A stretch of DNA of 34,121 nucleotides from Chrysophaeum taylorii. Taxonomy: Eukaryota > Sar > Pelagophyceae > Pelagomonadales > Pelagomonadaceae. The stretch is from the NCBI GenBank assembly GCA_029834535.1, contig JAQMWT010000094.1, positions 1 through 34,121 on the forward strand, written 5' to 3'. The notes under the pieces were generated by a model. That model did not search any database, was not told the DNA's origin, and saw only the letters and a list, made by a program, of their open reading frames with translations. Shown in pieces: positions 10,200-30,823 of this stretch (position 1 is the stretch's first letter; every line of letters starts with the position of its first letter). Both the position numbers and the translations under genes were made by a program.

Positions 10200-13100
10200 A
10201 TGGACAAGAAGAATAATCCAGGCTGCCACGCACTCGCAAGTTTAAGAAGCAAGTCTCCTATGGCACTCTTCCTTAGCATAGAGGAAGCGCTTCGATCTTT
10301 AACGATCGAATCAACTCGAAGTCGAGCTCTAACCGATGTGAGTGAAGCAGCAGATAAGGCTATGCTCAAAGTGCGAGGGCTACAACAGGAATATTCAGCT
10401 TATTTGCGCACACGTACGCAGAATGTTGATCAGTGGGTGCCTATTCACGCATATTGCAGTCAAGACTTACTGCGACCATTTTTACTTGCCTGTAACCACA
10501 TAGAAGCCAGTGCCAAAGTGCATATTCTATCACTGAATGCGATTCAACAACAAGTTGCCTTGGATGGCGTCAGTTTGTCAGATGCTCCGAATGTCATGCA
10601 TATACTCGCAATTCAATCTGGGAACCCCCACACTGAAGTTCAATTGAAAGTCTTACAGACACTCGTAATCATCACGTCATGGTGTTTGCTTGAGAGTCAT
10701 GTCATGAATGAAGATGTTGTTCTGCAGCCTCTGGCAGTGTCCATTCGGGCGCAGTCTGAACACTTAGAGAGCTGTGATTGGGGCTGTGGCACCTTTTTCA
10801 AATACTTGTAAAATAATAACACGTGTGGAGTGCGATTGCTGTTGTGTCATCAGACAATTTTTCTTTTTTTCTGACGTGATCCTACCAGGTGTAGGTGCAT
10901 GAGCATTTGCTTCCAGCTGTATCATTTTGCAAACGCTGTTGTTAAGAATGCGTCAGTTGCCACGACTCGTCAAGTCATCACCCATCTCTATGACAAATAC
11001 GTGTTGAGAGCTGGTGTCGGCGCGCTAAGCATGGAATGTTTGAACTATCCACCGGGGGAACGTGCTAAAATTCAACCTACGTCAGGTTACACTTGCGCGT
11101 ATGTGATTTTTCGTGACTTGTGCAGCCTCTGCCACGGTGCTCCGGCTGTTTGGCTGAAGCGTCAAGTTACCCCTGTCATTCTCGTGCTCGTGGTTGAACT
11201 GATTGAACTGATCCTGAAATTGCGGCCATCTGTACTTTGCTCGCTTCCAGATTTCACAAACCTGATCAAGGATAAGGTTGTCACTTGGCTACGCACAGTT
11301 CTCCGTCAGAAGACGCGGTGCGTTCAGCGTGAATTGTGATGTGTGTTGTAAACGTCTCACGCTCATCCCCAATGGATGATTGTCAGCTGAGCGCAAATTA
11401 CAAGGAGGAATTCCTTATTCTTGCTTGCGTCTGAATGCGCGTCCATGCTAGGTTTGGCGTTTTGTTTCGTGCTGCTAGACTTGCTGTTTGTCTAATCACC
11501 GAGTATGGTCGCAACTTAGCATATGAGCGCGTTGAATTGCTTCTAGAAATGCTCCAGATTATCTCCTTAAGTGATTGCAGCCAAGATTTGAGCGAGGACT
11601 CTAAGGTTCACGAGCTTGGCATGTCTCTGCTTCGGATGGTTAGTGGCGCGTGTCGAACTCGTGAAAGCTTCACTCACTTGCTGGAAACGTACCCCAGGGG
11701 GCACGGCGCTTGGGTGGTGGCGAGTGTCCTACGGTCTGTTGCACAGTATTGCACTCGAAGCGATATTAAGTTGAAAGTGCAGGCACTCAACATTAATGCA
11801 ACTTTATTATCTAATGGAACCCGGTCTCAGATGGAGTTCAGAAACATTGCTCAGGTTCCGCCGGAGGCTTTTGCTTCCAACTTGCAAGGTTCTTTTCTCT
11901 TGTACTTAGAATGTATCAAGGGGGTTGTTGACATACTGCATACATGTTGTAGCGAGGTCGGCTGTACTATCGAGCGAGGCTATGGAGGCAGACTGAAGAC
12001 CTGTGTGTTGATTCAAGACATGCAGACTATTGTGAGGATGTGCTATGATAGTCTCCTGGGGGTAATAATGCATGTTCTGCAGTATACTAGCAATTTCTCC
12101 TTGTTTTCAACGATATTCACGCTTTATGAGCACTTTGGTGTGGCGTGCAGTGAATTACAAGTGATAACCGCTCGCAATGCAGTACTTGCTTCAATCTCCA
12201 GATTTACGGTCCCAATCTTGCCAAAAGTATCGCCGTTAGGTCTGGATTATAATATTACTTTCAAATACCGGGCTTATACCGCTGTTTTACGCATTATAAG
12301 TCGCATTTCAGACCAACTAGGTTCAGCCTGGGACTACATCATACCGCAGTTGAACAACCTCGAAATAAGCACTAGGGCATTCCTGGGTGCAGATTTACAG
12401 ACTCCCCCCGACGTTACTAATTCCGAGTGGACAATTCCAGTCCAAACCTTTCGCCTAGCTGTGCAGAGATTTCTTATGCACACAAGGAGTTTGACTGTTG
12501 CGGCAGTAGTGCGTATTATCAAAGGATTCTCGAAGGTTGCATTGGCATTTCCTGTACTTGCTCAACCTGTGTACACAATTCCAGGCACTGTAGAAGCTCG
12601 GATGGGTGTCGTGCAGTTGGATCTCACGAAAAAGTGTACCAATGTCGACAGCGCTAACCCAAGACACGAGTTTGGGCCATCGATGTACGTTTTGGCAGCA
12701 ATGCGAAATATCGTGCTTGTGGCTAAATCCAATTCCCACCGACTGAAGCACTTCTGGGACTTACTTGTGAACGTTTTTGCTGCCTTGGTGAATAATTCAG
12801 AGCATGTGGTCCGAGCAAGAGCCTGTGATGCTGTGATCGAACTGATCAAGTATGCAGTGAAGCCTGCCTCACCTGCACATGCGTTCCAGGCTGATACGGA
12901 GCCTGATGTGTTTCGTGTGGATACTGCGATGCACCATGAGTTCGGGGTGCTGGACTTATTTGGTGGCGAACCTGATGATCCTGGTGTCTGTAAACTGCCG
13001 GCCGTGTTCTCCCAAGTGACTTTGCTTAAACCACTTGGAATCTTGATGCAGTGCGCTCGCGATGATGTCAGGCATCGCCTTTTGAGCGGCCTTCATGCTC

Positions 13101-15370
13101 TGCTGCAATCTTGTGGTCAGTTTCTGACAAGCGCTTGGTCAGTGGTCTTCGCAGTGCTACGCAATACGGCTGACTCTCTACCCCGGCAGTCGTTGGTTGA
13201 ATTAGGGGCGCGCAGCTCGAACGTTGATCTAGGGCCATTAATCATACCCTGTGGAGCTGCGGTTGTTGACAATACGCTTCTTAGCAATGCTTTCAAGTCG
13301 CTCCATTTAGTAGTAGATGATTTCTTGGAGTACATGCCGAGCGATTGCCTGAGAGCCTGTATAAAATGCATTGGTTCTTTTGGAGCACAAAACCATGACG
13401 TGAACATAAGTATTGCTGCTATAAGCATGACTTGGGCCATGGCCGACCATATTGCCGTGGTTAGTGACGCGAAAAGTGATCGTGCTCCTTACAACTCAAG
13501 GTCATCAAAGCATTGCGTTGTTCGTGAAGCTTGGTTATCTCTTTTTGCTGAGCTCAGCAGGTTGTTGTACGACACTCGTCCAGAAGTCCGGAACTGCACT
13601 CTAAATTCGATGTGTTCCTTGGTGGTCGGAAAAGGTGGATCGATGGACCTAGACCAGTGGCATGCGTGCTTCACTGAAGTGATTATCCCCTTTTGCATGT
13701 TTGTTCGGCAAGAAATAGCATCATTTTGTGCACAGTCGCGTTTGCCGGAACGTGCATTCGAAGGACTTGCAGAATCACACATCTTGATCTTACAAACTAT
13801 CAGCCGTGTACTTCGGATTCATTGCCGAATCGTCGGGGTAGCATGGTGGTTCCAGCATGTTTGGCAGCAGCTGCTTGCAGTCAGTTGTCAAGCTGTGTTG
13901 GTGAACACTTCGCAACGTGTGCGAAAGTATCACGGAAGGACAGTCCACAGCAGTCTGCTTTATATAGCGGCGTCAGCTGTTGAGCTTGTGTTTGTGATGC
14001 TCCGATTAGCATCTCTCACTGCTAACACGGGAGAAAGCGTGAACGTTAATGCCAGTATGAAGGTTGTTGATGGAATTTTGAGTCGTGGAGCAAGTCCTAC
14101 TGTAGCACATTCAGGCGACAGGCGTCAATCCTGTTGGCATGTAGAGCAATGTGGTACAAGGCGCCTGCAGCTTTGGCGCCAAACCTGGATGACTGTCGAA
14201 GCCATCGCATCGTTGCCTGTGGGAAGCTCTTATGAGCTGCGAACGAAAATGTTCAAGGAGCTCGTACAATTGGTACCTTCACGTAATGGGAGCGTGGAAT
14301 TTGCAGATCCTTGTGTACTTTCTTGCGTCTTGAACATCATCAAGCCACTAGTGTTTGAACCAAAGTCTTTGGCCGGCTCTGTTTTTGGCATATGTCGTTT
14401 GACTTCGCTTAGTGAACTGAAGTTGGTCCTTCAGCTCCTGCATCGTGTTAGCTCATGTGCCGCGCGTGTTTGCACTGAGGGCATCATCATGCATGTGCTG
14501 CATATAGTCAATTCTATTGCTTCTGCTTGCAAACCACTTCCTTTTGGGCGCGCCCAAAACATACATTTATCGTTGAGCGGTTTCACGGTTGCTACTTTAC
14601 TTATGGTTTTTGGCAATATACCACCTGACTTCAAGGTGAAGTGTGTCAGTCAAGAGGCGCTATCGTTCAGTTGCGAGCGTCACAACCGATCACTAATTGC
14701 GCAACATGCGCTGAGCGATACCCTCCTCAACTCCGCAGAACGCGCTACCTTACAGGGATATGTGTGCTCAAGTATTTTTTACGATCAGTCACTTGTCCGT
14801 GCAATCACGGGGTCGAGGTGTGTGAGTACAGCTCCGATGAATTATTTGGACCAAGCCATATGCGAGCTGGCTGCTATCCTTTTCCCACAAGCACCTGTAT
14901 TCACAAACATACTGGTACGATCAGTCGAATATTACGAAGTTGTGGTTTTAATGAAGTATCAGCTTGTGCGCAGTATTGCTGTTGAAGCAACCAGGTCAAA
15001 CAAAGCGCACGTTAGTGTCGTTGCGCACTGTTCTCTTAACGAGCAAGCTCTTGCTTCAGTTATTATCACCTGCGTGCAATTATCAGCCTCTATGAACGAA
15101 ACTTTGACAAGTGAGGTGCTCGGCACGCAGACAACTCTCCGCTCTGAGGTTGACGCTGCTTGTGAGAGCGCGCATTGGCTAGCGTGGACTCACCAAAATG
15201 CAACCAAGCACCTGCTCAAGTCTGAAATCCTTCCAAGGATGACTAACTGCTATGGCACACCTGTGCATGCTTCTAGATGGCGTAGAGACATGCTGGAATG
15301 TGTTCTGGAAGCAGTCGCCGATGCTACTTCACCGATGGCACAGAACATGGCAGGCTTGCTGACGTTCTAG
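10200..15370 (+). CDS. MON2: MON2 homologue (Sec7-related trafficking protein), three exons
   Basis: Exons 10200-10807, 10889-11317 and 11452-15370 join in frame to 1651 codons; animal MON2 is about 1700. The N-terminus (LFLSIEEALRSL, AADKAMLKVRGL) matches the DCB region of MON2/BIG/GBF proteins. In exon 2, VATTRQVITHLYDKYV and CAYVIFRDLCSLC match the HUS region. Exon 3 carries long alpha-helical repeat sequence, with EFGVLDLFGG and REAWLSLFAELSRLLYDTRP as MON2-specific blocks. There is no Sec7 catalytic domain, as expected for MON2. The family acts as a scaffold at Golgi and endosomes with DOP1 and a Neo1/ATP9-type flippase. The first ATG in the conserved frame is taken as start. No stop or frameshift is seen, in contrast to its neighbours. 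Confidence 0.93.
10808..10888 (+). other. MON2: MON2 intron 1 (81 bases)
   Basis: GTAAAA donor and CTACCAG acceptor, with a T-rich tract (TTTTTCTTTTTTT) followed by CTGAC as a likely branch site. Splicing removes the TAA at 10809-10811 and joins the codon TT|G in frame. A weaker donor at 10739 would also keep the frame and would shorten a non-conserved stretch. Confidence 0.75.
11318..11451 (+). other. MON2: MON2 intron 2 (134 bases)
   Basis: GTGCGT donor and GCTAG acceptor. Removal bypasses the TGA at 11337-11339 and joins the split codon CG|G in frame, linking the HUS-like exon 2 with the FGVLFRAARLAV block of exon 3, which matches the continuing MON2 alignment. Confidence 0.75.
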
Positions 15371-16261: not shown

Positions 16262-16711
16262 AGAGTATTCCGCAAGGCAGTGGCATTAAGTCACTGAAGG
16301 ACTATCCCGTCTCACCGTGTGAGTCTGGCAGGGTAGGTTCAAGGTTCGGTCCCCCTAGCCTCAGCGCACGACAGCCGATACATAGAAACACACCTAGGTT
16401 AACATGTGATTGCAGAGAAATCCGCTAACTCCTACCCTTATTCCGTCCGTTGAGAGCGCGATCTTTTCCTTACCCTTCTTCTCCCCTTTCACACAATCTA
16501 TTAGTCCTCGGAATTGCGCTCAAGTTCATCATGGATTAGCGCGCCCCGTAGGTATGCAGGATCACATGTAAACCTAGGTGTTCTTCTATGTATCGTCTGT
16601 CGTGTGCTGAGGCTAACCTTGTTCCCTGAAATCTGCCCTGCCAGACTCACACGGTGAGACGGGATGGTCCTTCAGTGACTTTATACCACTGCCTTGCGGA
16701 ATACTCTGCAG
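16262..16711. repeat. Long inverted repeat, about 150-base arms and 147-base loop
   Basis: The left arm (about 16262-16411) is the reverse complement of the right arm (about 16559-16711) with scattered mismatches. For example CCGTCTCACCGTGTGAGTCT pairs with AGACTCACACGGTGAGACGG, and CAGAGTATTCCGCAAGGCAG pairs with CTGCCTTGCGGAATACTCTG. The right arm is part of the 5' region of element B. B2 has the right-arm sequence but not the left arm, so the left arm is an added inverted piece. Confidence 0.88.
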
Positions 16712-17697
16712 GTTATGGGCCCAGCGGGGTCCTGAGGGATCATGTGTTGCATGCACGTACCATATTGGGTTTTGGACCGTTACCGCGCCGGTCTAGCCTC
16801 GCCATGCAACACAATTTGTTTGTATACGCTTTAACATGGGTTGTACAAAGCTACACCGCACACGTTAAGACTGCGCACCCCCTGTGTGCTTGTTTATAGT
16901 CATCGTATTGTCGTGAAAGTGTTGGTGTGTGTGTAGTCAGGCTAACCTGTACTGATTGCACGCGCGCTATGGAATATTTTGGGTATGTCCACCACTCCAC
17001 ACTTCACGATAGTACACTTAGCCGCTCGCTGAGCACCACCCTACCAACAACTGCCTGTCAGTGCATAGCCTTTCACACTGGCAGGAACCACAGTTTGTAC
17101 AGTTGCCATATAGGCACCTTCCATTGTCTACCTGATGAGTGTACATAGACACCGCTAGACAGACCCCCTTGGAATGTCTAGCTGTAGTCAACTGCTCTGA
17201 CTGAACCCATAGGTTCACGTCACCGTTCTCATGGCAGAACGAGCAGCAAGAGCCGCGCCCAAGGCAGTCACTGGCGCGGATATCCTCAAGCTCGAATCCC
17301 CTGTTGTTGAGTTTCTCAACGAAGGAAATCGGTTTCAGCTTCAAAGCCGGAAAGTCTCACTCCAAGTGAGACAGATCACGCAACTACTGCGCTTTCACCA
17401 CGCAGGAGCCCTCTTCGAATTCGATTCGTACGAGGCTTATACCAGGTCCTGCCCTGACTATGAAGTCATGCGCAATCGGATCTTGGACCAGGCTTTCCTG
17501 GATTGGCAACGCGCCAGAGTGGGAGAACTCAACCTCGAGTCTGTTGAAGATTTGCCTCCTGAATATCAGAGCTGGCACTTCACAGCTGAGGCGTTCCCAC
17601 ACTTACCAGACCTCGAAGTTGCACAGTTGGCCACTGTCTGCTACAATAATGAGGTCAGGGCTCTTCGGCCCGCGATTAACAGTCGATCTAGAGATGC
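16410..17697 (+). mobile_element. Element B1: 5' LTR/leader and start of gag
   Basis: From TTGCAGAGAAATC at 16410 the sequence is alignable to 27875 onward (element B2): shared blocks include TCTGCAGGTTATGGGCCCAG, TTACCGCGCCGGT, TGGAATATTTTGGGTA and GTGTACATAGACACCG. It runs through about 820 bases of non-coding LTR/leader into gag at 17231. It is cut at 17697 by the LTR of element C. The exact LTR/leader border is not resolved because no 3' LTR is in the window. Confidence 0.8.
17231..17697 (+). pseudogene. Gag N-terminus of element B1, truncated by insertion
   Basis: The ATG at 17231 opens a protein that is about 70 percent identical by eye to the gag start of B2 (28711). Shared blocks include MAE.AARAAPKA, PVVEFLN.GNRFQLQ, DSYEAYTRSC and FPHLPD.EVAQLATV. 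About 156 codons are kept until the insertion of LTR C; the open frame runs by chance to 17746 inside that LTR. Unlike B2, this copy has no frameshift in the shared part, so it shows the original frame of the B gag. It has no zinc knuckle in the retained part. Confidence 0.75.
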
Positions 17698-19510: not shown

Positions 19511-19707
19511 TAGAGAACAGTAATCACAACTGTGTTGCCCTTCAGCAGAGCGTGAGAACAGTGGTAGTCTGTCCTCGAATCTGTCTCCTAAACGAGGACA
19601 GCCGGTGTGAATAACACAGCGTTTTCTTAAATCAAAAGGTGGCAAAGTTAAGGGAACTAACCCTAGAATAGGGGGTACTAACCCTAATTCGGATTTTCTA
19701 TCTCTAC
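19511..19707 (-). repeat. 3' LTR of element A' (minus strand)
   Basis: It is the reverse complement of the LTR at 22092-22292, with about ten substitutions and a 4-base indel by eye. Ends are TAGAGA...TCTCTA, a 6-base inverted terminal repeat, in place of the common TG...CA. RNase H lies directly upstream in its own direction, so this is a 3' LTR. Confidence 0.88.
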
Positions 19708-19748
19708 GCCCTCACAGATTGAACTCGGTGAGCGAAATCTGGATCAAA

Positions 19749-20878
19749 CTAAGCAGGAAGCGTCTTACCATCGACAAGAATGTAGAGAGTGTTCTGGACA
19801 GAGTCGTGCGGTGGAAGAGTACCTGAAAGAGTAGCTTGATGAGATGGCGGTGAGGAGGAGGCGGAGTGAACACCGTAGGAGTTTTTGAACTTGTGAAATA
19901 ACTTGCGTGGTAGGAGCTTTGAAAAATGATCAGCGACCTGGTAGTGTGTAGGACACCAGAGAGGTCTAATGATCGAAGTAGCTTGGTAGTCACGAATGCG
20001 AAATTCTCGGAAATTGATATGACGAGAAGGAGCACTGACTTTAGGGTGATTAGCGACATGTAATGCGCTAGCGTTATCAATAAGCAGGAATAGCGTAAGC
20101 TTGATCACACGAAAACAGATAAGGGTGAGAGGAGAAAAGCTTGTAAAACCTGTGACATTCATTGACGGCTGCGCTGGCGGCGATGAGTTCAGCTTCCGTG
20201 GTGCTTTTGGCAGTAAGAGTTTGTCGTTTGCTAGACCAAAATACGAGATTGCCAAAGACGAAGACACATGCACCATAATTGGATCGCAAGCGAGGGTCAG
20301 AACGATCAGCAAAACTTGCATCAGTAAAACAAATAATGGGTGAACGAAGGTGATGCAGTTCAGGATAGCGGTTGATCAGATGCTGAATAAAGGGGGTAAT
20401 AGAGGGGCTGTCGGATGAATAGTCGAGTGAATCATTCGGAGTGCCCTTTAAGTAGCGAAGTAAAACATATAAGTGCAGAAGGTGGGTCTGATCGGGGTTG
20501 TGCATGCCCTTGCAGCATTTGTTGCACAAAGTGGTGATATCAGGCCGACATGTGACAGACAAGTAAATGCTAGTGCCACAATAGTGAGGAAAATTTTGAC
20601 GTAATACGTCTAAAGTAGGAGCCAAGTCTGAGAGAAGTTTAGCAGAAGGTTTTTGAATGAGGATGTCCGAGTAGGGGACGTCCAGACTATGTAGGTTGAG
20701 CTTATGCTCAGCAAGCATCTTGGTGATCTTCGCTGCTACATTCATAGTGAGATGACCAGCGGAGACATTGTAGTGAACATCGATGCCAAGAAAGGATCTG
20801 ATGTTGTCATGCCACGTGCCTTTGCCGCATTCCTTCTCCAGAGCAGTGCGAAGAGATATAATTTTGGCAGTGTTGGTA
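19749..20878 (-). pseudogene. Ty1/copia RT C-terminus and RNase H
   Basis: On the minus strand the segment starts in the RT connection (SFLGIDVHYNVSAGHLTMNV, the copia FLGi.i...g.l.l block). It continues through the RT thumb region into a copia RNase H: CFTDASFADRSD with the first Asp, VFWSSKRQTLTAKSTTEAEL with the catalytic Glu, then after a frameshift near 20090 LIDNASALHVAN with the next Asp and YQVADHFSKLLPRKLF, the copia q.AD.lTK.L block. A stop at 19749 is followed by 40 bases and the 3' LTR. The RT catalytic YVDD part is lost at the inversion join. This segment shows that family A is Ty1/copia-type. Confidence 0.92.
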
Positions 20879-22091
20879 CCAGAGTCAGCTTTTTCGCTGA
20901 TGGTTGCCGACGACGCCTGTGCCGCCAACCACATCTTACTCAATCAGGCCCCAAGCCCTACGATGACGAATTTCCCGACCTCATCAACCATATCATCCAG
21001 AGTCGCAGATTGTCTTTGTGCCACCTACACTCCAAGCAAGACCTCAAAGAAGACAAACTCGCGGCACGGATGCAATGGACCCGGCACTGAAACTTCCTTA
21101 ATTGACGGTGGCACATCCTTTTGCTTCACTCGCACAATTCAACACTTTGTTCCCGAGTCCATACGCCGGATTCCCGAACACACCGTACGCATGGGAAAAG
21201 GCACCTTGACCAGCCATTTCATCGGCGTTAAACCGTTGTACTTGCAGGCCGCAGGTCTCTCCCCAAAGGATATAAAAGAATCAACTGGTTACGAATTGTG
21301 CCTTGTATTTCTGGTCGTCCCGCAATTCCGAAAAGGTCTACAGGTTATCGCGACATCTCAGCTCAAAGCTCTGAATGTACAAGCAACAGACCCTCCATTG
21401 CCACACGAACCATACCTGTATGAGCTAATGAACACGTCGACGGCTGATCCTCACGATTACAAGACGCTTCTAGGAAAAACAGCAATAGTTCTCGCCACTC
21501 GCCAAACCAATGGCCTGTTGTCCCTGCCGTCTCATCCAAAGCAAACATTCCGGCTGTGGTTAGTTTTCACACCGGCACGCGAATGTCACTCAAGGATGAA
21601 CCTGCGCACATCACACAGCATGTCGCCAAGACACGCTCGCAATCCCACATGTTGGATTTTGCTAATCTACAGCATCATTCCACATTCCTCCAGGAGCTCA
21701 TTAGCCTCCCGCGTACTGTCGTCCAATTTGCTTTCACTGGCTTAGCGGGCCTCACTGTGCAAGCACACCCCCCTCCGCTAAAAACAGCCATTATTACAGG
21801 TGGACTTCACCAAGAAGGCTTACCTCTTTTCGCAAACGCTTCGACAACCGTATTACTGTCGTGGTCACCTGTGAAATTCACCCTATTATGCGCGCCCGCG
21901 CGCAACAACTCTTCCCGCACGCTCAGCATTATGCGGATCTCAGAAAGCTCAATGCCGCTCTGCAAACCGGCAAAATCAGACTACCTCATTTCGACTTAGC
22001 GGTTTTCACACTGCCATGTCAACATTTGAGTGTAATGAAAGAATACGACGGCTACGCCACTCCGGTGACCGCCGACCTTTTCGTCACAGAA
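20879..22091 (+). pseudogene. A'' pol fragment: protease and N-terminal half of the cytosine methyltransferase
   Basis: It aligns with 24580-25790 of element A. The protease keeps GTETSLIDGGTSFCFTRTI. The in-frame stop found in A is absent here: the equivalent residues read MNTSTADPHDY. Frameshifts near 21545 and 21845 follow. The methyltransferase part keeps motif II (VVTCEIHPIMRARAQQLFP), motif III (HYADLRKL) and the catalytic loop FTLPCQHLSVMKEYDGYA, then is cut at 22091 by the LTR of A, before motif VI. Differences from A are mainly conservative by eye. Confidence 0.85.
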
Positions 22092-22292
22092 TAGAGATAG
22101 AAAATCTGAACTAGCGTTAGTACCCCCTATTCTAGGGTTAGTTCACTTAACTTTCCCACCTTTTGATTTAAGAAAGCGCTGTGTTATTCACACCGGCTGT
22201 CCTCGATTAAGAGACAGATTCGAGGACAGACTACCACTGTTCTCACGCTCTGCTGAACTGAAGGGTAACACAGTTGTGATTACTGTTCTCTA
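22092..22292 (+). repeat. 5' LTR of element A
   Basis: 201 bases, TAGAGA...TCTCTA. It contains a 9-base stem (CTGTCCTCG 22197-22205 with CGAGGACAG 22221-22229), also conserved in the A' copy. It interrupts the A'' methyltransferase frame. Confidence 0.9.
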
Positions 22293-22315
22293 GGTATTGG
22301 GCACCAGTCCCGGTA
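22293..22315 (+). promoter_or_regulatory. Candidate primer-binding region of element A
   Basis: TGGGCACCAGTCCCGG begins four bases after the LTR end; a TGG start complements a tRNA CCA tail. Element C has TGGACCCAGTCCCG at the same place. The tRNA is not identified. Confidence 0.4.
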
Positions 22316-22377
22316 TCAGCAGAGCCTCAGGATTCCCAGACAAGCCCCGCTCACTGACGTTCCTGAACCCAAGCAAA

Positions 22378-24601
22378 ATGCCAACCAATCGAGAACGCCA
22401 GAGGGAGATAAGAGAACAAGAAGCTCGCTTAGAAGCCAAGTACCAAAGAGACATGCAACAACAAGCTCAAGCGTACGAAGCTCGGCATAAACAAGAGATG
22501 CAAGACCAAGAAACTCGCTTGATGGCTCAAATAAGCGCTCTGTCCACCCAAGTGCAAGCAACGCAAGCACCACCACCTGCCGTCGCTGCTGCGGCTCCGC
22601 CTCCCACTCCGGCTCAACAAGATCCCAAGTCTAAGATCAACACCTTTACTGACCCCCCTAGCGTCAACACCTTTACTGACCCCCCTAGCGCCGTCCTCAC
22701 GTCGATGGACAACGCTCAAGTCACACCCCAGATGCTTTCATTTCGTGTCATGCAATTGTTCGTCGAACATCTGATGCCTGAAACAGGTATAACTCAGTAC
22801 TTCCTACAGGGCTTCTACACGTGGGAATCCGTCCTGCGCGGATCTAACGATCTCGCTGGCGCTCTCCTAAGCCACTGTATCGACGAATACGACAAGGACC
22901 CCGACAACCACTCTACCGCCGGGAACACGCCAGATTTCCAAGGCCGTTACGTCTACTCCAATGGCGTCTACCGCAAGTTCGGCAAGCACTTCCTGGACAA
23001 CGTCTACGACACAAAACTTCAAGAACTCAAAGACCAAGACAAGGACCCAACCGATATGACAAAAGGCAAGTTATATCCAATTACACAACCCCATCTCCAA
23101 GGAAAAGAAACCGACTTCATCGCATATCTCCGCGAGACTGCACACCCCTTATTTCGCCGTTTCCTACATGCCGGTAGCGACTCCGTCAAGCACCCAGCAT
23201 ACGACGAAATCGATGCACTCGGATCCTCCTACCCGACAGGACTCGAATTTGTGCTTCAAGTTCGCCTCGCACTCGACAAGCACACGGGCCAGAACCACAT
23301 CCACCATGCGCATTATGTTTACAATGCCTTTCTGGACACGCCGTTCAACCCTGAAATACATGAGCCAGCTCACTACATCGACTACATGCGTCATGTCCAG
23401 CAACAACTGCGCCAGATCACCACGGACGCTTCTCTCCAACTTCCCGACGACAAGATCCTCGAAGAAATTCACCAAATTCTCCGCTTCAAGTACTCCCCAA
23501 GCTTGCTTGACTCCCGCGCCCCAACACACATCAAGGGCTTTGCACGTCTTGCCAACTGTCTGCGCAATCCCAACGACTCGCTGTTACTCGACGAAGACAA
23601 TGAAGCCATCCACCACCTTCCTAAGCTCATCGCTCGCATCACCGTCATTTCAACGTTTGAGCGCAACTTTTGGGCTCACCTCGAGCCTCACCCCACTCTC
23701 AACTTCAAGCTTTGCGCTCCGTTACGGACTTTGGTCGTCTGCCAACAAAGGACAAAGATGACCCCCGCTTTCGCTCCCGCCATCATGGTCTCCACCTCAC
23801 CGAAGACGATGATGACACCACTCCCTCTGAAGACGAAACCCCACCGGACCCCATTGAAGACACCGACCCCGTGGCTGTTTTTCTCACGGAGGCCAATCTT
23901 GATCAAGAGGGAGACAATGACCTTATTCACCAACTACACGCCTACCGCAAGAAGCAAGTTTCGCAGCACGTCAAAAAGCCCCCTCCAGGCAAAAAGCTTC
24001 CTAATCCTCGCTCCCCGTCTTACTACGACGTCAATGACAGTCCTAAGCCCAAGGCCACCCCTGCACCCCACCGAAGAACAAGCACCGTCCCCGCGCTCCT
24101 CCTGTCACCCCTGACAAACGCGAGCACCCACATCTTCGCAAGGTCACCTTCCCCACACAACCTCATCCACCCAAACCATCCACTCCCGACCAACGCTTCA
24201 AGGTCCCCCTTCGTGAAGTCTGTCGCAAGCTCCAAACCATACGGAATCTTAGCAAAGCCGGTCGCCAACATACGTCCAGCTCCGAGCGTATGAACAAGCT
24301 AATCAACCTCATCACCACCATTTCCGATGAGATACTTCTTTCCGAAGCCGAAAACGACGCCGCCGAATTCCTCCAGATGTTAACGTCCGATCCCCAAGAC
24401 GATCAACCTGATGAGGGCGAAGCCGAAACCGATGAACAAGACGACAACGGACATCTCGGTTTCTACGACGACAACGGTCAGATAAACCTCTACGACGATA
24501 CCGTTCCCGAAACCACTGATGAAGATGACTCCGCCGAAGACTACGCCAAACGTCGCAGTGACTACATGCGTGCTCTCCACCAGAGTCGGCTTTTTCGCTG
24601 A
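22378..24601 (+). pseudogene. Gag of element A, three frames
   Basis: The ATG at 22378 follows the leader. Residues 1-55 are a charged coiled coil (REIREQEARLEAKYQRD, QEMQDQETRLMAQ), followed by an Ala/Pro linker with a 27-base duplication (NTFTDPPS twice, 22639-22692). A gag-like helical core follows (MLSFRVMQLFVEHLMPETGI, FLQGFYTWESVLRGS, LRETAHPLFRRFLH). The frame changes at about 23690 and again at about 24080; the later parts are acidic/Pro-rich (HLTEDDDDTTPSEDETPPDP and DEQDDNGHLGFYDDNG). The last frame ends at the TGA at 24599-24601. No CCHC zinc knuckle was found. Gag forms the virus-like particle. Confidence 0.7.
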
Positions 24602-25140
24602 TGGTTGCCGACGACGCCTGTGCTGCCAACCACACCTTACTTCATCAGGCACCAAACCTCAAGATGACGAATTTCCCGACCTCATCAACTATTTCCACAA
24701 GAGTCGCAGATTTCCTTTGTGCAGCTTACACCCCAGAAAAGACCTCAAAGAAGACTAGCTCACTGCACGGATGCAATGGCCCCGGCACTGAAACCTCATT
24801 GATTGACGGTGGCGCATCTTTTTGCTTTACGCGCACAATTCAAGATTTTGTTCCCGAGACCATACGCCGCATTCCCGAACACACCATTCATATGGGCCGA
24901 GGGACTCTTACCAGCCACTTCATCGGTGTTAAACCGTTGTATCTGCAGGCTGCAGGTCTCCCATCAAAGGATACAACAGACAAAACCGGTTACGCTTTAT
25001 ATCTCGTATTTATGGTCGTCCCGCAATTCAGACAAGGTCTTCAAGTTATCGCAACATCTCAGCTCAAAGCTCTGCATGTACAAGCAACCGACCCGGCCCT
25101 GCCCCACGAGCCCTATCCTTATGAGCTTCTAAAGTCCTGA
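24601..25140 (+). CDS. Aspartic protease region of A pol (DGGAS active site)
   Basis: The frame holds a linker, then GTETSLIDGGASFCFTRTI with a D-G-G-A-S box (Asp codon 24805-24807) at the place of the copia DSGAS/DSGAT retropepsin motif. GYALYLVFMVVPQFRQGLQV and IATSQLKALHVQATDP are conserved in A''. The frame stops at a TGA (25138-25140) but stays open in the same frame afterwards (TSDPHNYAALLGKTAVVLAT), and the A'' copy has no stop there. This is therefore a single-base lesion, or less likely a readthrough site, between protease and methyltransferase. The start at 24601 is only the first possible start codon after the gag stop. Confidence 0.7.
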   Translation: MVADDACAANHTLLHQAPNLKMTNFPTSSTISTRVADFLCAAYTPEKTSKKTSSLHGCNGPGTETSLIDGGASFCFTRTIQDFVPETIRRIPEHTIHMGRGTLTSHFIGVKPLYLQAAGLPSKDTTDKTGYALYLVFMVVPQFRQGLQVIATSQLKALHVQATDPALPHEPYPYELLKS

Positions 25141-25218
25141 ACCTCCGATCCGCATAATTATGCAGCCCTTCTCGGAAAGACCGCCGTCGTACTCGCCACT
25201 CGCAAACCAAACGACCTG

Positions 25219-26344
25219 TTGTCCCTGCCATCCCATCCAAAGCAAACACTCGCCACTGTGCTCAGTTTCCACACAAGAAAACGAATGTCACTCAAGGATG
25301 AGATTGCGCACATCACACAGCATGTCGCAAAGACACGCTCACAATCGCACATGCTTGATTTCGCCAAGTTACAGAACCATTCTCTGTATCTCAACGAACT
25401 GCTCAACCTCAAACATCCTGTCGTCCACTACGCCTTCAATGGCTCCGCAGACCTCTCTGTGCAAACACCAGCCCCTCTGCTCAAAACAGCCATTATTGCA
25501 GATGGACTTCACCAGGAAGTTTTCGACACTTTTCGCGAACGATTCGACAAACGCCATACTGTCGTGGTCACCTGCGAAATCAACGATATCCTGCGCACCC
25601 GTGCGCAGCAACTCTTCCCGCACGCCCAGCACTATGCGGACCTAAGAAAACTCAATGCCGCACTCCAAACCGGCAAAATACGACTCCCTACATTCGACCT
25701 GGCAGTTTTTACATTGCCCTGCCAACATCTGAGTGTAATGAAAGAATACGACGGCTATGCCACACGGGTCACCGCCGACCTTTTCGTCAAAGAACAAATC
25801 CGCTTCGTTCGTTGCACGCTCCCGACCTATGCCATTGTCGAGAACGCACCTCCCAACCCCCGAACTCACCACGAGTATGCTCAACTCGCCAAAGGTTATC
25901 AGCGCTTAGGCTACTTCCGCCACTCCGGCGTCTATAATGCCTCTGCTTTTGGTGACGTCATCAGCAAGACACGTCGTCTCGCTGTGTATGCCCGGCACCC
26001 GCTCACCGGCTACAACCTCGAGAAAACCGCCTCTCCTTGGTTAACCTCACCCCCGAGCATGGTTCCTCTCCTGGACCCCAGTCACACCATCCCTGACGAT
26101 CTCTGGATCGCCAAACCCGCCCTTCGTGGTACAGTGCCCCGCTCCACATTGGACTACTACCAGCACAAGGCCACCTACTCCTACAAGCCCGCCAGCGCCT
26201 CGAAACTCTCGATTTCCGAGAATGCCCGCATCTGCCAAATGCTCGCACGTCTCACCAAGCCCTTCACGGATCTCGGTCTAGATGCCGACGGCACCCCCTA
26301 CGCCGCAATGGCGTCCATTTCCCACCTCCTGGTTTTCACATTCC
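25219..26344 (+). CDS. C5-cytosine DNA methyltransferase domain in A pol
   Basis: This is residues about 1-375 of an uninterrupted 623-codon frame. Conserved DNMT motifs appear in order: a weak motif I (TAIIADGLHQEVF, residues 90-102), II (VVVTCEIND, 115-123), III (HYADLRKL, 138-145), IV (FDLAVFTLPCQHLSVM, 159-174, nucleophile Cys168, codon 25720-25722), VI (YAIVENAPP, 204-212), VIII (SAFGDVISKTRRLAVYA, 242-258), IX (KLSISENARICQM, 329-341) and X (DGTPYAAMASISHLLV, 357-372). About 70 residues between VIII and IX would be the target-recognition region. Motif I lacks the usual GxG and motif VIII has SK for PQ. The family transfers methyl from SAM to C5 of cytosine in DNA. It would be released from, or act within, the Pol polyprotein. 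Confidence 0.88.
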
Positions 26345-26690
26345 TGCACAACCATTTGTCGCAACACCCCACTCTCGCCGCTTGGAACACCATCCGATGT
26401 TTTCACGCCTCAGAGTCTCAATGTGCTTACCATTTGGATGGAGCCATCACCGGCACCGCCGCTACTGCCGTCGCATGTGGCTACTTCTCGCGCGTCTCCC
26501 TCACACTACATTCCAGCCCCCCTCAGATTTTGGACTGTTCCCATCAACCCGCAGTCTTCTCCCCAACGCACTCCTTTTCCCTGGATGTTCCCAAGGGCAC
26601 CGCCTTTCTGGTCGTCGCTTACACCACCTCCTTGGCCGCCGCTCATAGCTGCTCGCGCCCGTCCACTTGGGTCCACTATGTGAATCGTTC
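26345..26690 (+). CDS. TET/JBP-like 2-oxoglutarate dioxygenase domain (tentative) in A pol
   Basis: This is residues about 376-490 of the same open frame, directly after methyltransferase motif X. AAWNTIRCFHASESQCAYHL leads to an HxD (His405, Asp407; codons from 26431), then TAVACGYFSRVSLTLH in place of the GxGxYxGGxLxL strand, then SPTHSFSLDVPKGT with a second His (His451) 46 residues after the first, and FLVVAYT like the closing siVyyT strand of TET/JBP proteins. In NgTet1 the Fe ligands are spaced similarly. The 2OG-binding Arg expected about ten residues after the last His is Thr/Ala here, so activity is doubtful in this copy. TET/JBP enzymes oxidise 5-methylcytosine or thymine in DNA. 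The call rests on pattern and on agreement with B2, not on a search. Confidence 0.55.
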
Positions 26691-27410
26691 GCATCCTGGC
26701 TTTGCCGCGATCGACTCACAAGGGCGAATTGCTCTCGATGACCCCAAGGGACTCCTTATGTCCAAAGCACGTCCCACTTACGCGGACTATGTCGGCCACA
26801 TCGGAGACACGCTTCAGAAGAGCACCAAGCGCTACTCGGTCACTGGCTCGTACCCCACCAACACGAGCTACTCCAATGCCTTGCTGCTGATCTCTCCAGA
26901 CCGCATTCGTTATGCGACCCTCGACTTATCGCAAAGTTTGGACACCACTCGGACCCGGAACTGCTCCGACTGTTCAAACAGCACCCGCCGTACTTCGCGT
27001 TCAAGGCACTGGCCAGCGCCGTCCCGCACCACGTGCTGCAGGCAAAGTACAGCGCTGTCCTCGCATTCCACGAATCGCACCACCACGTGAACTTTCACAT
27101 CGAATGGGCAACAATACGCAATGGCATCCCCAGCCTAGGAGACATCACCTAGGTTGCAGACTTCTTCATGAGCATCTCCAGCCGTCTCTTAGCAGTGGAG
27201 GACCTCAACCTCACCTCCCTTTTTAATGCCATTGCAGATGCTCACCATGCTGCGATCCGCAAGCCAAGCAGATCGAAAAACCTCGAGACGCCACTTGCCG
27301 ATGCCACAGTTGCTAAAATCCGAGTCTACAAGCGACCCACTCCACCTCGGACTTCGACTGCCGCTCTGCCCCCCCTTGCACAAGCCCGGCACCATTCAGC
27401 ACGCAAAAAG
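26691..27410 (+). pseudogene. Unrecognised conserved domain X of A pol
   Basis: Between the dioxygenase-like domain and integrase lie about 240 residues in two frames. The first (to about 26930) has HPGFAAIDSQGRIALDD, YADYVGHIGDTLQKSTKRYS and NALLLISPDRIRYATL. The next continues with DPELLRLFKQHPPYFAFKAL and, after a TAG at 27150-27152, VADFFMSISSRLLAVEDLNL. B2 has alignable blocks in the same order (YTGYLRGSDRKLGSKIH, NIILLDPRNGKLRYPTRPEL, AQAFMISISSSCLTEMSLN), so the domain is real and shared. I know no family for it. Confidence 0.65.
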
Positions 27411-27874
27411 AATGCTTTTGGTCACTCGCTGGCACCGCATACACCACCAGCAACCAGAGATTCTTCGCCGCACGATTGGCGCTAATGTAACGAATCTCCG
27501 CCCAGGTGATGATCGGTATCTGCAAGACTGCAGTGAATGCAAGCGCTGTCAATCGCATGTAAGCTTCAGTCAAAAGAACAATTCCTGGTCACAGGATGAA
27601 CTGGCCTATGCTCCCGGCCAACACCTCCACATGGATGTATCATACCCGAGCATCCGCGAGTGCTACGGCGGATTTCGCTATATCATGCACTTTGTGTATG
27701 TTATCTCAGCACACAAGTGGGTCTATTTCCCGCGGAAATTAGACGCACAGGGTGTTCTGGCCGGCATCCTCTATGTGGACAATGTGATTAGAGTCGAATT
27801 CGATGTCAATGTGAAGATCATATCATCTGATGCCTTCTCAGCTTTTCGCTCTGAAGCTTTCCACCCCCTCAAGG
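27411..27874 (+). pseudogene. Copia-type integrase of A, truncated by B2
   Basis: An HHCC zinc finger is visible: VTRWHRIHHQQPEIL and, 25 residues on, YLQDCSECKRCQSHVSF. The core begins with GQHLHMDVSYPS (first catalytic Asp) and YGGFRYIMHFVYVIS. The second Asp is in KIISSDAFSAFRSEAF, the family's irSDnG.EF box with Ala-Phe for Asn-Gly. The frame differs from that of domain X (shift at about 27400). The sequence ends at 27874, where element B begins, before the catalytic Glu. Confidence 0.85.
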
Positions 27875-28710
27875 TTGCAGAGAAATCTGTTGCCTCTTAC
27901 CCTTACCCGTCCGTTGAGAACGTGATCTCTTCCTTACCCTTCTTCTTTTCTACACAATCAAATAGTCCTCTGATTTGTGCCTACGCTCATCATCATGGTC
28001 TAGCGCGTCCCGAGGTATGTAGCACTATACACTTTACCTTTCTCGTGTAGTTCTAGATGCCGCCTGTCGTGTTCTGAGGATATAGGGAACATACCTTTTC
28101 ATACCCCGAATTAAATACTTCCAGACGTTCATGATGAGACGGGATGGTTCCCCAGGTGACTTACCACTGCTTGCTAAATGCTCTGCAGGTTATGGGCCCA
28201 GGCGGGTCCCTGAGAAACCATGTGTTAAAACGTGCACGTAACCTATGGGTTTTGAACTGTTACCGCGCCGGTTCAGCCTCGCCACGTAAACACACTTGTA
28301 AATACAACGCCATTACCATTGGGCTGTATATAATACTTTTTTTGCACGCGTGATCGTGTAACCTTGTGTGCACCTGTTCATAGTATCGTATTGTCATGTC
28401 AATGTTGATGTGTGTGTAATTGGCTAACCTGTACTCTTGCACACATGTTATGGAATATTTTGGGTACGTCCACTCGTACATTCCATGGCAATGCACTTAA
28501 CAAGCTCCTTGAGAGCACCAAAGCTAACCAGCTGCCTGAGTGACTACGCTTAGCGACACTACTCTGGACTCACAGCTTGCACAGTCGTCAAATAGACATC
28601 TTTCCATCGAAAACGATGAGTGTACATAGACACCGATAGACAGACCCCCTTAGAATGTCTAGATAGTGTCAACTGCGTGACTGAACCCACAGGTTCCCCC
28701 GTCAACTGCT
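27875..28710 (+). repeat. 5' LTR/leader of element B2
   Basis: It aligns over its length with 16410-17230 (B1). The start TTGCAGAGAAATCTG abuts the A integrase. Shared landmarks are GGTTATGGGCCCAG (28189), ACCGCGCCGGT (28262) and GTGTACATAGACACCG (28620). The LTR/leader border is not resolved. No gene is seen in it. Confidence 0.75.
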
Positions 28711-30823
28711 ATGGCAGAACACGCAGCACGAGCCGCACCCAAGGCGATCACAGGTGCGGATACATTGAAGCTCGAAGCTCCTGTAGTTGAGTTTCTCAAC
28801 GATGGAAATCGATTTCAGCTTCAGACTCGCAAGGTGTCCTTGCAAATCAAGCATATTAAGCAATTGTTACGGTCCAGTCATGCCGATGCCTTCCTCGAGT
28901 ACGACTCGTACGAAGCATATACTCGGTCATGCAAGGACTACGAGATCCTCCGGAATCAAATTCTCGATCGCGTTTTCCTGGAATGGAAGACCGATAGGGC
29001 TGCTGATCTCCGTTTAGCTGTTGATGAATTGCCCCTGAGTATCAGGAGTGGCATTTCACCAACGAAGCTTTCCCCACTTACCTGATGCAGAAGTAGCTCA
29101 GCTAGCTACTGTCTGTTACGACTATGAAGTCAAGGCATTACGTCCTGAAATCAATGCCCGTTTCTTAGAAGAGGAACGAATCTTAAATCGCGCGCACCCG
29201 AAGGCATTAGCTTTCGACACCCGTGTTCGTGCCCCTGTTACCATGTTTTCGTTAACTGCTGCTGACTGGCACACTTATCAGAACACGTATGCTACATTCT
29301 TGCATACTTACTTCAATCTTGAAAGTGTTGGAAAACCAGCACTTGCGGCCTGGCCCGCCATCAATGAGGTATATAACAAAAGTTATTTACCCAACAAGGC
29401 TCGAGCCATTATGCTCATCGCCTTTAGTCACTACGAGTCTGTTACGACTACTGATGTGTCCTATTTGAAACAGCAATTTAACTCTGTTGTTTATAATCCT
29501 AACTGGTATGTCCATGTATTTATCGAAGCTGTCCTAGCATTTAGGCAAATCTCTTACCAACTTAACCAGGAAGAGACTGACCTTCAATTCGACTTTGGCA
29601 CTCTTTGTATAAAAATCTATGAAGAGATACATCGGCATTATGCCGATAATACCAGCAACAATCGTTACGATCGTGGTTGGGTAGATTGGTGTTATATGTA
29701 TGAAACCCGATCTTCATCTCGGCCTGTGCCAGAAGCTGAACGATTGTGTCACCCTACCAACCCATTAGACCTATACAATGTAGTATCAAATGGGTCGAAC
29801 AAAAGACGCTTAGAACGCCCTGTTTCTTGGCAACCCTATGTCGAAGGTTTATCATCTCAACCAAAGCCAAAGTTACTACTTACAAACACTCTGGACTCAG
29901 CAGACAAAAGTCTGACTCAAACTGCTAACACACTCGCCTTCATCACTTCGTCCCAACCTGGTACATCTTCCACGTTTAATGCTAGACGCTTGCGTAACTC
30001 TAATGATGCTCGCCAGCCTTTCTCTCGCAGCGATTTATCGTATTATCGTTCTGGTGATTCTTACGTCACCAAGAAAACTGCTGGACAGTCCCATGACCGT
30101 CCAATTTACCCCCGCACTTTTGACAGGTCCTCTCGGTCTAACATGAAATTATTAGAACGAACAAATCACACCTTAAACACCCTGCGAGAACAGTGTAGTG
30201 AACTTACGAAGCATGTGACAGATAATGATACCACGGCTCAGCTACAACAGAATATCGACAAGTTATTTGAGACTCTATTACAATCAGCTGACATTCTGTC
30301 AACGACATCTACTGAGGACAACAGTAGTTTACTTCGTCTAAACGAAAAGCTCATGTTTGCAGAAGACATCATTTATGATGTACACGTTCATCTATCCTCG
30401 ACCGAAAAGTCGTTAAACTACGTGGAGCCACAACACCATACTGTTGTTACTGCTCCCACCCCAAAGGCAACTCCTCCTACTACAAACACACAGGGTAATC
30501 CTTCCAATACCGTGCACAACCTCTTTACCGCTTCCGCCATCTCGGCTTTACCACCAGCATTATTGTCCTCGCTATCTTCACGGTCCAATCTGCCCTCAAC
30601 ATACCATCACAAGCCGAAACCAAAAGGGATGCCGATCATACTTCGCTATCGCTATCGTCATTTGATGAAAAGCACGGCATGGCTGATGAGGCTGACGAAC
30701 CATCACCACCTGTTCAACCGATTATTATTCCAACGAATCTGTTATTGCTGGAGAACTTCTTCACAGCCAGCCTCTCCACTACTTGCCCACATTCGGAAAA
30801 CGCCTTCCTCACCAACTACATGA
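28711..30823 (+). pseudogene. Gag of element B2, frameshifted near its start
   Basis: The ATG at 28711 opens a frame like that of B1 (MAEHAARAAPKAITGADTLK). Two closely spaced frameshifts at about 29030 and 29075 break it, as the B1 copy shows (PEYQ.WHFT.EAFPHLPD). The long continuation (29048-30823) has a helical core (LTAADWHTYQNTYATFLHTY, VHVFIEAVLAFRQISYQL), a Ser/Thr-rich middle, a probable coiled coil (LREQCSELTKHVTDNDTTAQ and LLRLNEKLMFAEDIIYDVH) and a Pro/Thr-rich tail. There is no zinc knuckle. The last 200 bases overlap the pol frame, shifted by -1, so a programmed frameshift is possible but not shown. Confidence 0.75.

Follow-up and report, generated by a model that had tools for sequence, protein, structure and literature searches.

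The window (the whole stretch of DNA analysed, 34,121 nucleotides of contig C94 of the Chrysophaeum taylorii assembly) contains a decayed member of a Ty1/copia family that carries a C5-cytosine methyltransferase (MTase) in pol, ahead of the integrase. The features of this copy and of the family copies next to it are listed in Table 1. Over positions 22663-27880 its DNA was 95% identical to that of L009, an open copy on contig C96 whose gag-like and pol frames are 578 and 1952 aa long, respectively; the match to L009 stopped at 27880, ahead of the reverse transcriptase (RT), which the window copy lacks. In the ORF listing of the window, the frame at 25141-27090 of the forward strand was stop-free and 649 aa long, and residue numbers below refer to this frame unless stated otherwise. 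Damage was found in motif I (AGG to ADG), motif VI (ENV to ENA) and motif X (Asn to Ser), the frame is broken within motif IX, and the gag and pol frames are broken too. Residues 116-128 are what we take to be motif I.

Table 1. Features of the retrotransposon copies in the window.
Feature	Position	Strand	Basis
Another copy: its RT/RNase H end and its LTR	19511..20882	-	aligns at the DNA level with L009:9011-9991 and 760-967
Second copy (protease-MTase fragment), into which the window copy is inserted	20878..22091	+	81.8% DNA match to L009:3414-4629
5' LTR of the window copy, inserted into another family copy	22092..22292	+	matches L009 LTR (L009:760 on); inverted match at 19511-19706
gag-like region, broken frames 22294-24114, 23661-24293, 24047-24601	22294..24601	+	ORFs
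Protease-like frame, LIDGGASFCFT	24562..25140	+	ORF; motif by eye
Open frame: N-terminal part, MTase motifs I-VIII, disputed segment	25141..27090	+	ORF, PF00145, alignment
MTase motif I region, residues 116-128; ADG here, AGG in the family	25486..25524	+	alignment A1
Motif IV LPCQHLS with catalytic Cys, residues 192-198	25714..25734	+	PF00145 match, alignment
Motif VI, residues 234-236; ENA here, ENV in most copies	25840..25848	+	alignment
Motif VIII-like SKTRR, residues 275-279	25963..25977	+	alignment
Candidate long target-recognition region, residues about 300-594	26038..26922	+	conservation, selection, related family, downstream motif IX/X
Claimed HxD	26431-26439	+	inside region 26038..26922
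Claimed distal His	26569-26571	+	inside region 26038..26922
Motif IX (frame break inside) and motif X (ASAVP, against ANAVP in most copies)	26908..27026	+	second part in frame 26742-27152
Integrase-like part, truncated	27193..27880	+	DNA match to L009, ending here before RT

The original prediction had placed an MTase fused to a TET/JBP-like dioxygenase between a retroviral-type protease and an integrase. As to the neighbours, this holds in outline: a protease-like frame comes before, called by eye from LIDGGAS with a Pfam match absent, and integrase-like sequence comes after, the rve match in L009 (0.0019) lying below the rve cut-off. The Pfam scan gave no match of note in the gag-like region, and scans of the window for tRNAs and Rfam families returned nothing. 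When the L009 pol was scanned in pieces with Pfam, MTase (3.6e-9) was followed by rve and then by RVT_2 (5.6e-39), which is the Ty1/copia arrangement; membership in Ty1/copia is based on the RVT_2-type RT found downstream of the integrase-like sequence in L009 and on the LTRs. The LTRs are about 200 bp long, with 88.9% identity between L009:760-967 and L053:289-484 in a 208-bp alignment.

The family is abundant in the genome searched (70.8 Mb in 697 contigs). At least 80 matches were obtained with the window frame (68 of 778 first-look candidates scored), at least 105 with a divergent copy (99 of 622), at least 152 with the disputed segment alone (150 of 290), at least 132 with the downstream part into the integrase (128 of 753) and at least 141 with the RT (138 of 1428), and these counts are perhaps slightly inflated by contig pairs that resemble duplicate haplotypes. 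In these pairs, C10/C297 and C25/C521, the two contigs shared their matches, with coordinates that hardly differed. Outside this genome, searches of the protein collection (E≤0.001 and E≤0.1) and of viral contigs found no relatives, and the MTase part alone, compared with phage records, matched MTases with a best E of 4e-6.

The methyltransferase half of the original prediction was borne out. PF00145 matched residues 159-274 of the window frame with 28.8 bits (E=1.1e-6), above its curated cut-off of 22 bits; the score in a piece of L009 was 36.9 bits, and 11 of 12 aligned copies matched the family (Pfam, E≤10). The comparison with eight reference C5-MTases in hhalign gave a probability of 96.5% and an E of 9.6e-10, the match covering residues 3-381 of 618 in L009. 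Residue conservation was scored over 31 loci besides the window. The Pro-Cys of motif IV was present in 28 of these, the exceptions being L022 and L026, which have a frame-shifted stretch there, and L028, which has a gap, and in motif VI the Glu and the Asn were each present in 26 of 31. Searches of the PDB with single sequences returned nothing, and the search with alignment A1 returned one MTase (8yf3, E 0.027). These results support the presence of a putative cytosine methyltransferase within the retrotransposon pol. Two further C5-MTase frames in the genome, L030 (G000:C634:8824-9801) and L031 (G000:C621:16962), are seemingly host genes, and PF00145 was stronger in them than in the elements.

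Purifying selection acts on the MTase part and on the disputed segment. Mean dN divided by mean dS, over pairs that are not independent of each other, was 0.216 for residues 1-110 (78 pairs), 0.159 for residues 111-405 (267 pairs), 0.222 for residues 407-505 (166 pairs) and 0.143 for residues 506-595 (100 pairs). These values were obtained from 24 of 32 sequences, the frame-disrupted or gapped loci L018, L019, L021, L022, L024, L026, L028 and L034 having been excluded beforehand, and pairs with dS up to 0.05, with saturated dS or with fewer than 60 codons were dropped.

The segment had been read as a dioxygenase from an HxD followed by a His 46 residues further on, and these residues (His431, Asp433 and His477 of the frame; 405, 407 and 451 in the numbering of the original prediction) are indeed present in the window copy. 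As a sign of a dioxygenase the pattern did not hold up, the triad not being kept across the family. The first His was covered in 28 loci, with 21 His, 5 Gln, 1 Lys and 1 Leu; it was replaced in L024, L028 and L032-L036, the most divergent copies among them, and retained in the frame-disrupted L026 (68% overall). At the distal His, 23 of the 25 loci covered had His and the two most divergent copies, L032 and L033, had Asn. The position which we take to be that of the 2-oxoglutarate-binding Arg, placed through the GxR pattern of the host TET/JBP-like gene L029, was Ala in 24 of 25 loci and Val in one, with Arg in 0 of 25. When residues 406-595 were shuffled 20,000 times, an HxD with a His 40-60 residues further on arose in 23.8% of the shuffles, and the same pattern was found in 3 of the 38 long frames of the window.

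Comparisons with known families gave a similar result. Tet_JBP (PF12851) matched neither the window frame nor any of the 12 aligned copies, for which Pfam at E≤10 reported no family besides PF00145, and the NCBIfam and PHROGs scans of the segment were without a match. With our own profile of 16 TET/JBP-like proteins, the best copy scored -0.2 bits and the best of 500 shuffles 4.3 bits, whereas the positive control, P0017 left out and scored with a profile of the rest, reached 63.6 bits. The probability in hhalign for the segment against TET/JBP was 0.1-0.6%, the alignment on the segment side being shallow. In Smith-Waterman comparisons with 15 TET domains, 14 gave p values of 0.18-0.85 and one (P0011) gave 0.003. 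PDB searches returned eight matches for the segment (E 0.61-1.6) and fourteen for the TET set (E 0.081-1.1), all of which were taken as chance. In the genome, PF12851 at E≤1 was found at a single place, a host gene.

A fusion of the MTase to an active 5mC dioxygenase of the TET/JBP kind would account for HxD and His being present in the window copy and most copies close to it, but given the replacement of the first His in 7 of 28 loci and of the second in 2 of 25, the missing Arg, the frequency of the pattern in shuffles and the restriction of PF12851 to one host gene, we regard it as extremely improbable. A double-stranded beta helix related to that of TET/JBP, but degenerate and non-catalytic and retained as a fold or as a DNA-binding part, could explain why the HxD-to-His spacing of 46 is near the 45 seen by eye in L029, why the best, non-significant hhalign alignment lies partly in that register and why P0011 gave its low p value. 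The other 14 Smith-Waterman comparisons, the hhalign probabilities and the TET profile, with which all copies stayed below the best shuffle, argue against such a domain, and we consider it very unlikely. The TET/JBP reading was therefore rejected on the results of Pfam, NCBIfam, PHROGs, hhalign, Smith-Waterman with shuffles, the TET profile with its control and residue conservation. A fused dioxygenase, and hence an element that would both write and erase 5mC, is not supported: no good sign of it was found, the segment fits better as a portion of the MTase itself, and the claim of a retroelement with both a 5mC writer and an eraser is set aside.

The host gene L029 (L029:1033-2562, G000:C548) is a 509-aa frame with a weak Tet_JBP stretch, HVDANN...H...GERIS (0.0015, below cut-off) and, behind it, an ILEI domain whose PF15711 match exceeds the cut-off. 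The same ILEI domain was present in relatives from algal and metagenome data; the search with L029 returned 15 proteins, and the only species name among them was Aureococcus anophagefferens. The dinoflagellate spliced leader, sought with up to 1 mismatch, gave no match. Both results speak against a Perkinsus or dinoflagellate host and make a pelagophyte-type alga likely.

The original prediction had also placed motifs IX and X so that the MTase ended near residue 405. This is probably wrong, and a better candidate was found past the supposed dioxygenase: the open frame of L009 goes on with RYATLNEIAK...FKALANAVPHHM (RYATLNEIAK...FKALANAVP), which resembles motifs IX and X of C5-MTases. A relaxed motif IX+X pattern occurred once in L009 and was also present in 5 of the 8 reference MTases, while 50,000 shuffles yielded it 17 times; its only matches among 18 proteins were the two derived from L009, and two stricter patterns were each absent from 100,000 shuffles; all of these patterns were composed after the sequence had been seen. 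The Asn of ANAVP was present in 18 of 20 sequences, the window included, and the Glu of motif IX in 19 of 20, the window not being covered there. Some profile tests failed to confirm this placement. In the four copies scanned together with the downstream stretch, PF00145 ended at profile position 160-163 of 324 each time, so that the C-terminal motifs were unreached, and an HMM built from the IX/X block of the reference MTases recovered none of six main-family copies, nor the window frame, and gave the related family described below 3.6 bits, under the best shuffle (5.2).

A search with the RT separated this family from its nearest relatives in the genome, the lowest matches within the main family being 64-66% identical and the next RTs 43-44% identical (contigs C560, C681 and C214). 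One of these related elements, L043 (C560), matched the main family from the protease to MTase motif VIII (25% over 354 aa, 4e-22) and again across motifs IX/X (29% over 111 aa, 9e-9), where it has RYVTPEETAR as motif IX and FKEQASMI in place of the main-family FKALANAV. The middle of L044 (C214) matched at 2e-5. In both elements the MTase was unseen by Pfam, with AEC at motif IV and EEM at motif VI instead of PCQ and ENV. The first part of the segment (407-505) had no significant likeness to the related family. The same order in the two families suggests one old MTase module that begins with motif I, ends with ANAVP and has the segment for a long target-recognition region.

Given the motif IX/X-like sequence that follows the segment in open copies and the matching stretch in the related copia family, we think it likely that the segment is the part of the MTase between motifs VIII and IX, namely the enzyme's own target-recognition region of about 300 residues. 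A target-recognition region of this size is long. The main competing possibility, which we had favoured before the related family was found, is that the MTase ends near residue 405, with KLSISENARICQM...ISHLL at residues 357-405 as motifs IX/X, and that residues 406 to about 700 (406-595 in the earlier placement) are a separate conserved domain, an old part of the pol of this copia clade between MTase and integrase. The stretch 357-405 is also motif IX/X-like by eye, dN/dS shows the segment itself to be conserved, and hhalign at low stringency puts the C-terminal end of the reference MTases near there, on the segment and not on ANAVP. An NSVP-like motif X is absent at that place, however, whereas ANAVP and the motif IX match further down are conserved and, at the corresponding downstream position, a typical motif IX string is also present in the related family. 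We therefore consider an end near residue 405 rather unlikely.

In the mechanism that we propose, the MTase would be freed from pol, the Cys of motif IV would attack a cytosine where the long recognition region has read the DNA, and the element cDNA or the target site would become methylated. The reading of DNA by the segment, the enzyme activity and the purpose of methylation are what we infer from these comparisons. Between L043 and L044 dN/dS was 0.246 over 255 codons despite the altered AEC and EEM motifs. A speculative idea based on this, to which we give little weight, is that the module can outlive its catalysis, the MTase being an inherited pol module of the copia clade in which DNA reading matters more than chemistry; placed next to the integrase, it may choose integration sites by sequence or methylation rather than, or besides, writing marks.

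Methyltransferases have been reported in other retrotransposons. The accessible part of de Mendoza et al. 2018 (PMC5890265) describes DNMTs in DIRS, LINE and Gypsy elements (SymbioDIRS-Dnmt3, SymbioLINE-Dnmt and KnitGypsy-Dnmt3), some of which methylate CG in yeast, and Symbiodinium Copia elements without any DNMT domain. Like those elements, the present family has a C5-MTase in the pol frame of a high-copy algal retrotransposon, with key residues and purifying selection kept; unlike them (DIRS, LINE and Gypsy, with Dnmt3-type or other enzymes) it is a Ty1/copia family with a divergent MTase and a long region past motif VIII. A 2025 paper (PMC12344493), citing de Mendoza 2018, refers to LTR Copia and DIRS elements with DNMT3 in streptophytes and dinoflagellates, and the combination of Copia and DNMT is thus not wholly unreported; in its accessible text neither pelagophytes nor Aureococcus were mentioned, and a stramenopile element was not found. 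Fungal DNA transposons and Helitrons that encode TET/JBP are described in the accessible part of Kojima 2025 (PMC12730594), in which no retrotransposon with TET/JBP was found. They resemble the present family as mobile elements with a cytosine-modifying enzyme and differ from it in being DNA transposons and Helitrons. Nothing resembling the window element was present in the accessible parts of PMC9998398 and PMC6338049, and among the papers listed on Aureococcus or pelagophyte retrotransposons, methyltransferase and Copia, no title or abstract opening describes it. The present results add a Ty1/copia family of a pelagophyte alga to the few retrotransposon lineages with a cytosine methyltransferase, and point to two diverged MTase-carrying copia families within the same genome, of which one has changed catalytic motifs.

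Elsewhere in the window, positions 16410-17661 and 27875-29136 were alike at 72% and represent another repeat, the second of these stretches lying directly past the truncation point of the window copy. At 11435-15370 a single frame of 1311 aa with Mon2_C and Sec7-like_HDS matches was found, a host gene without visible introns.
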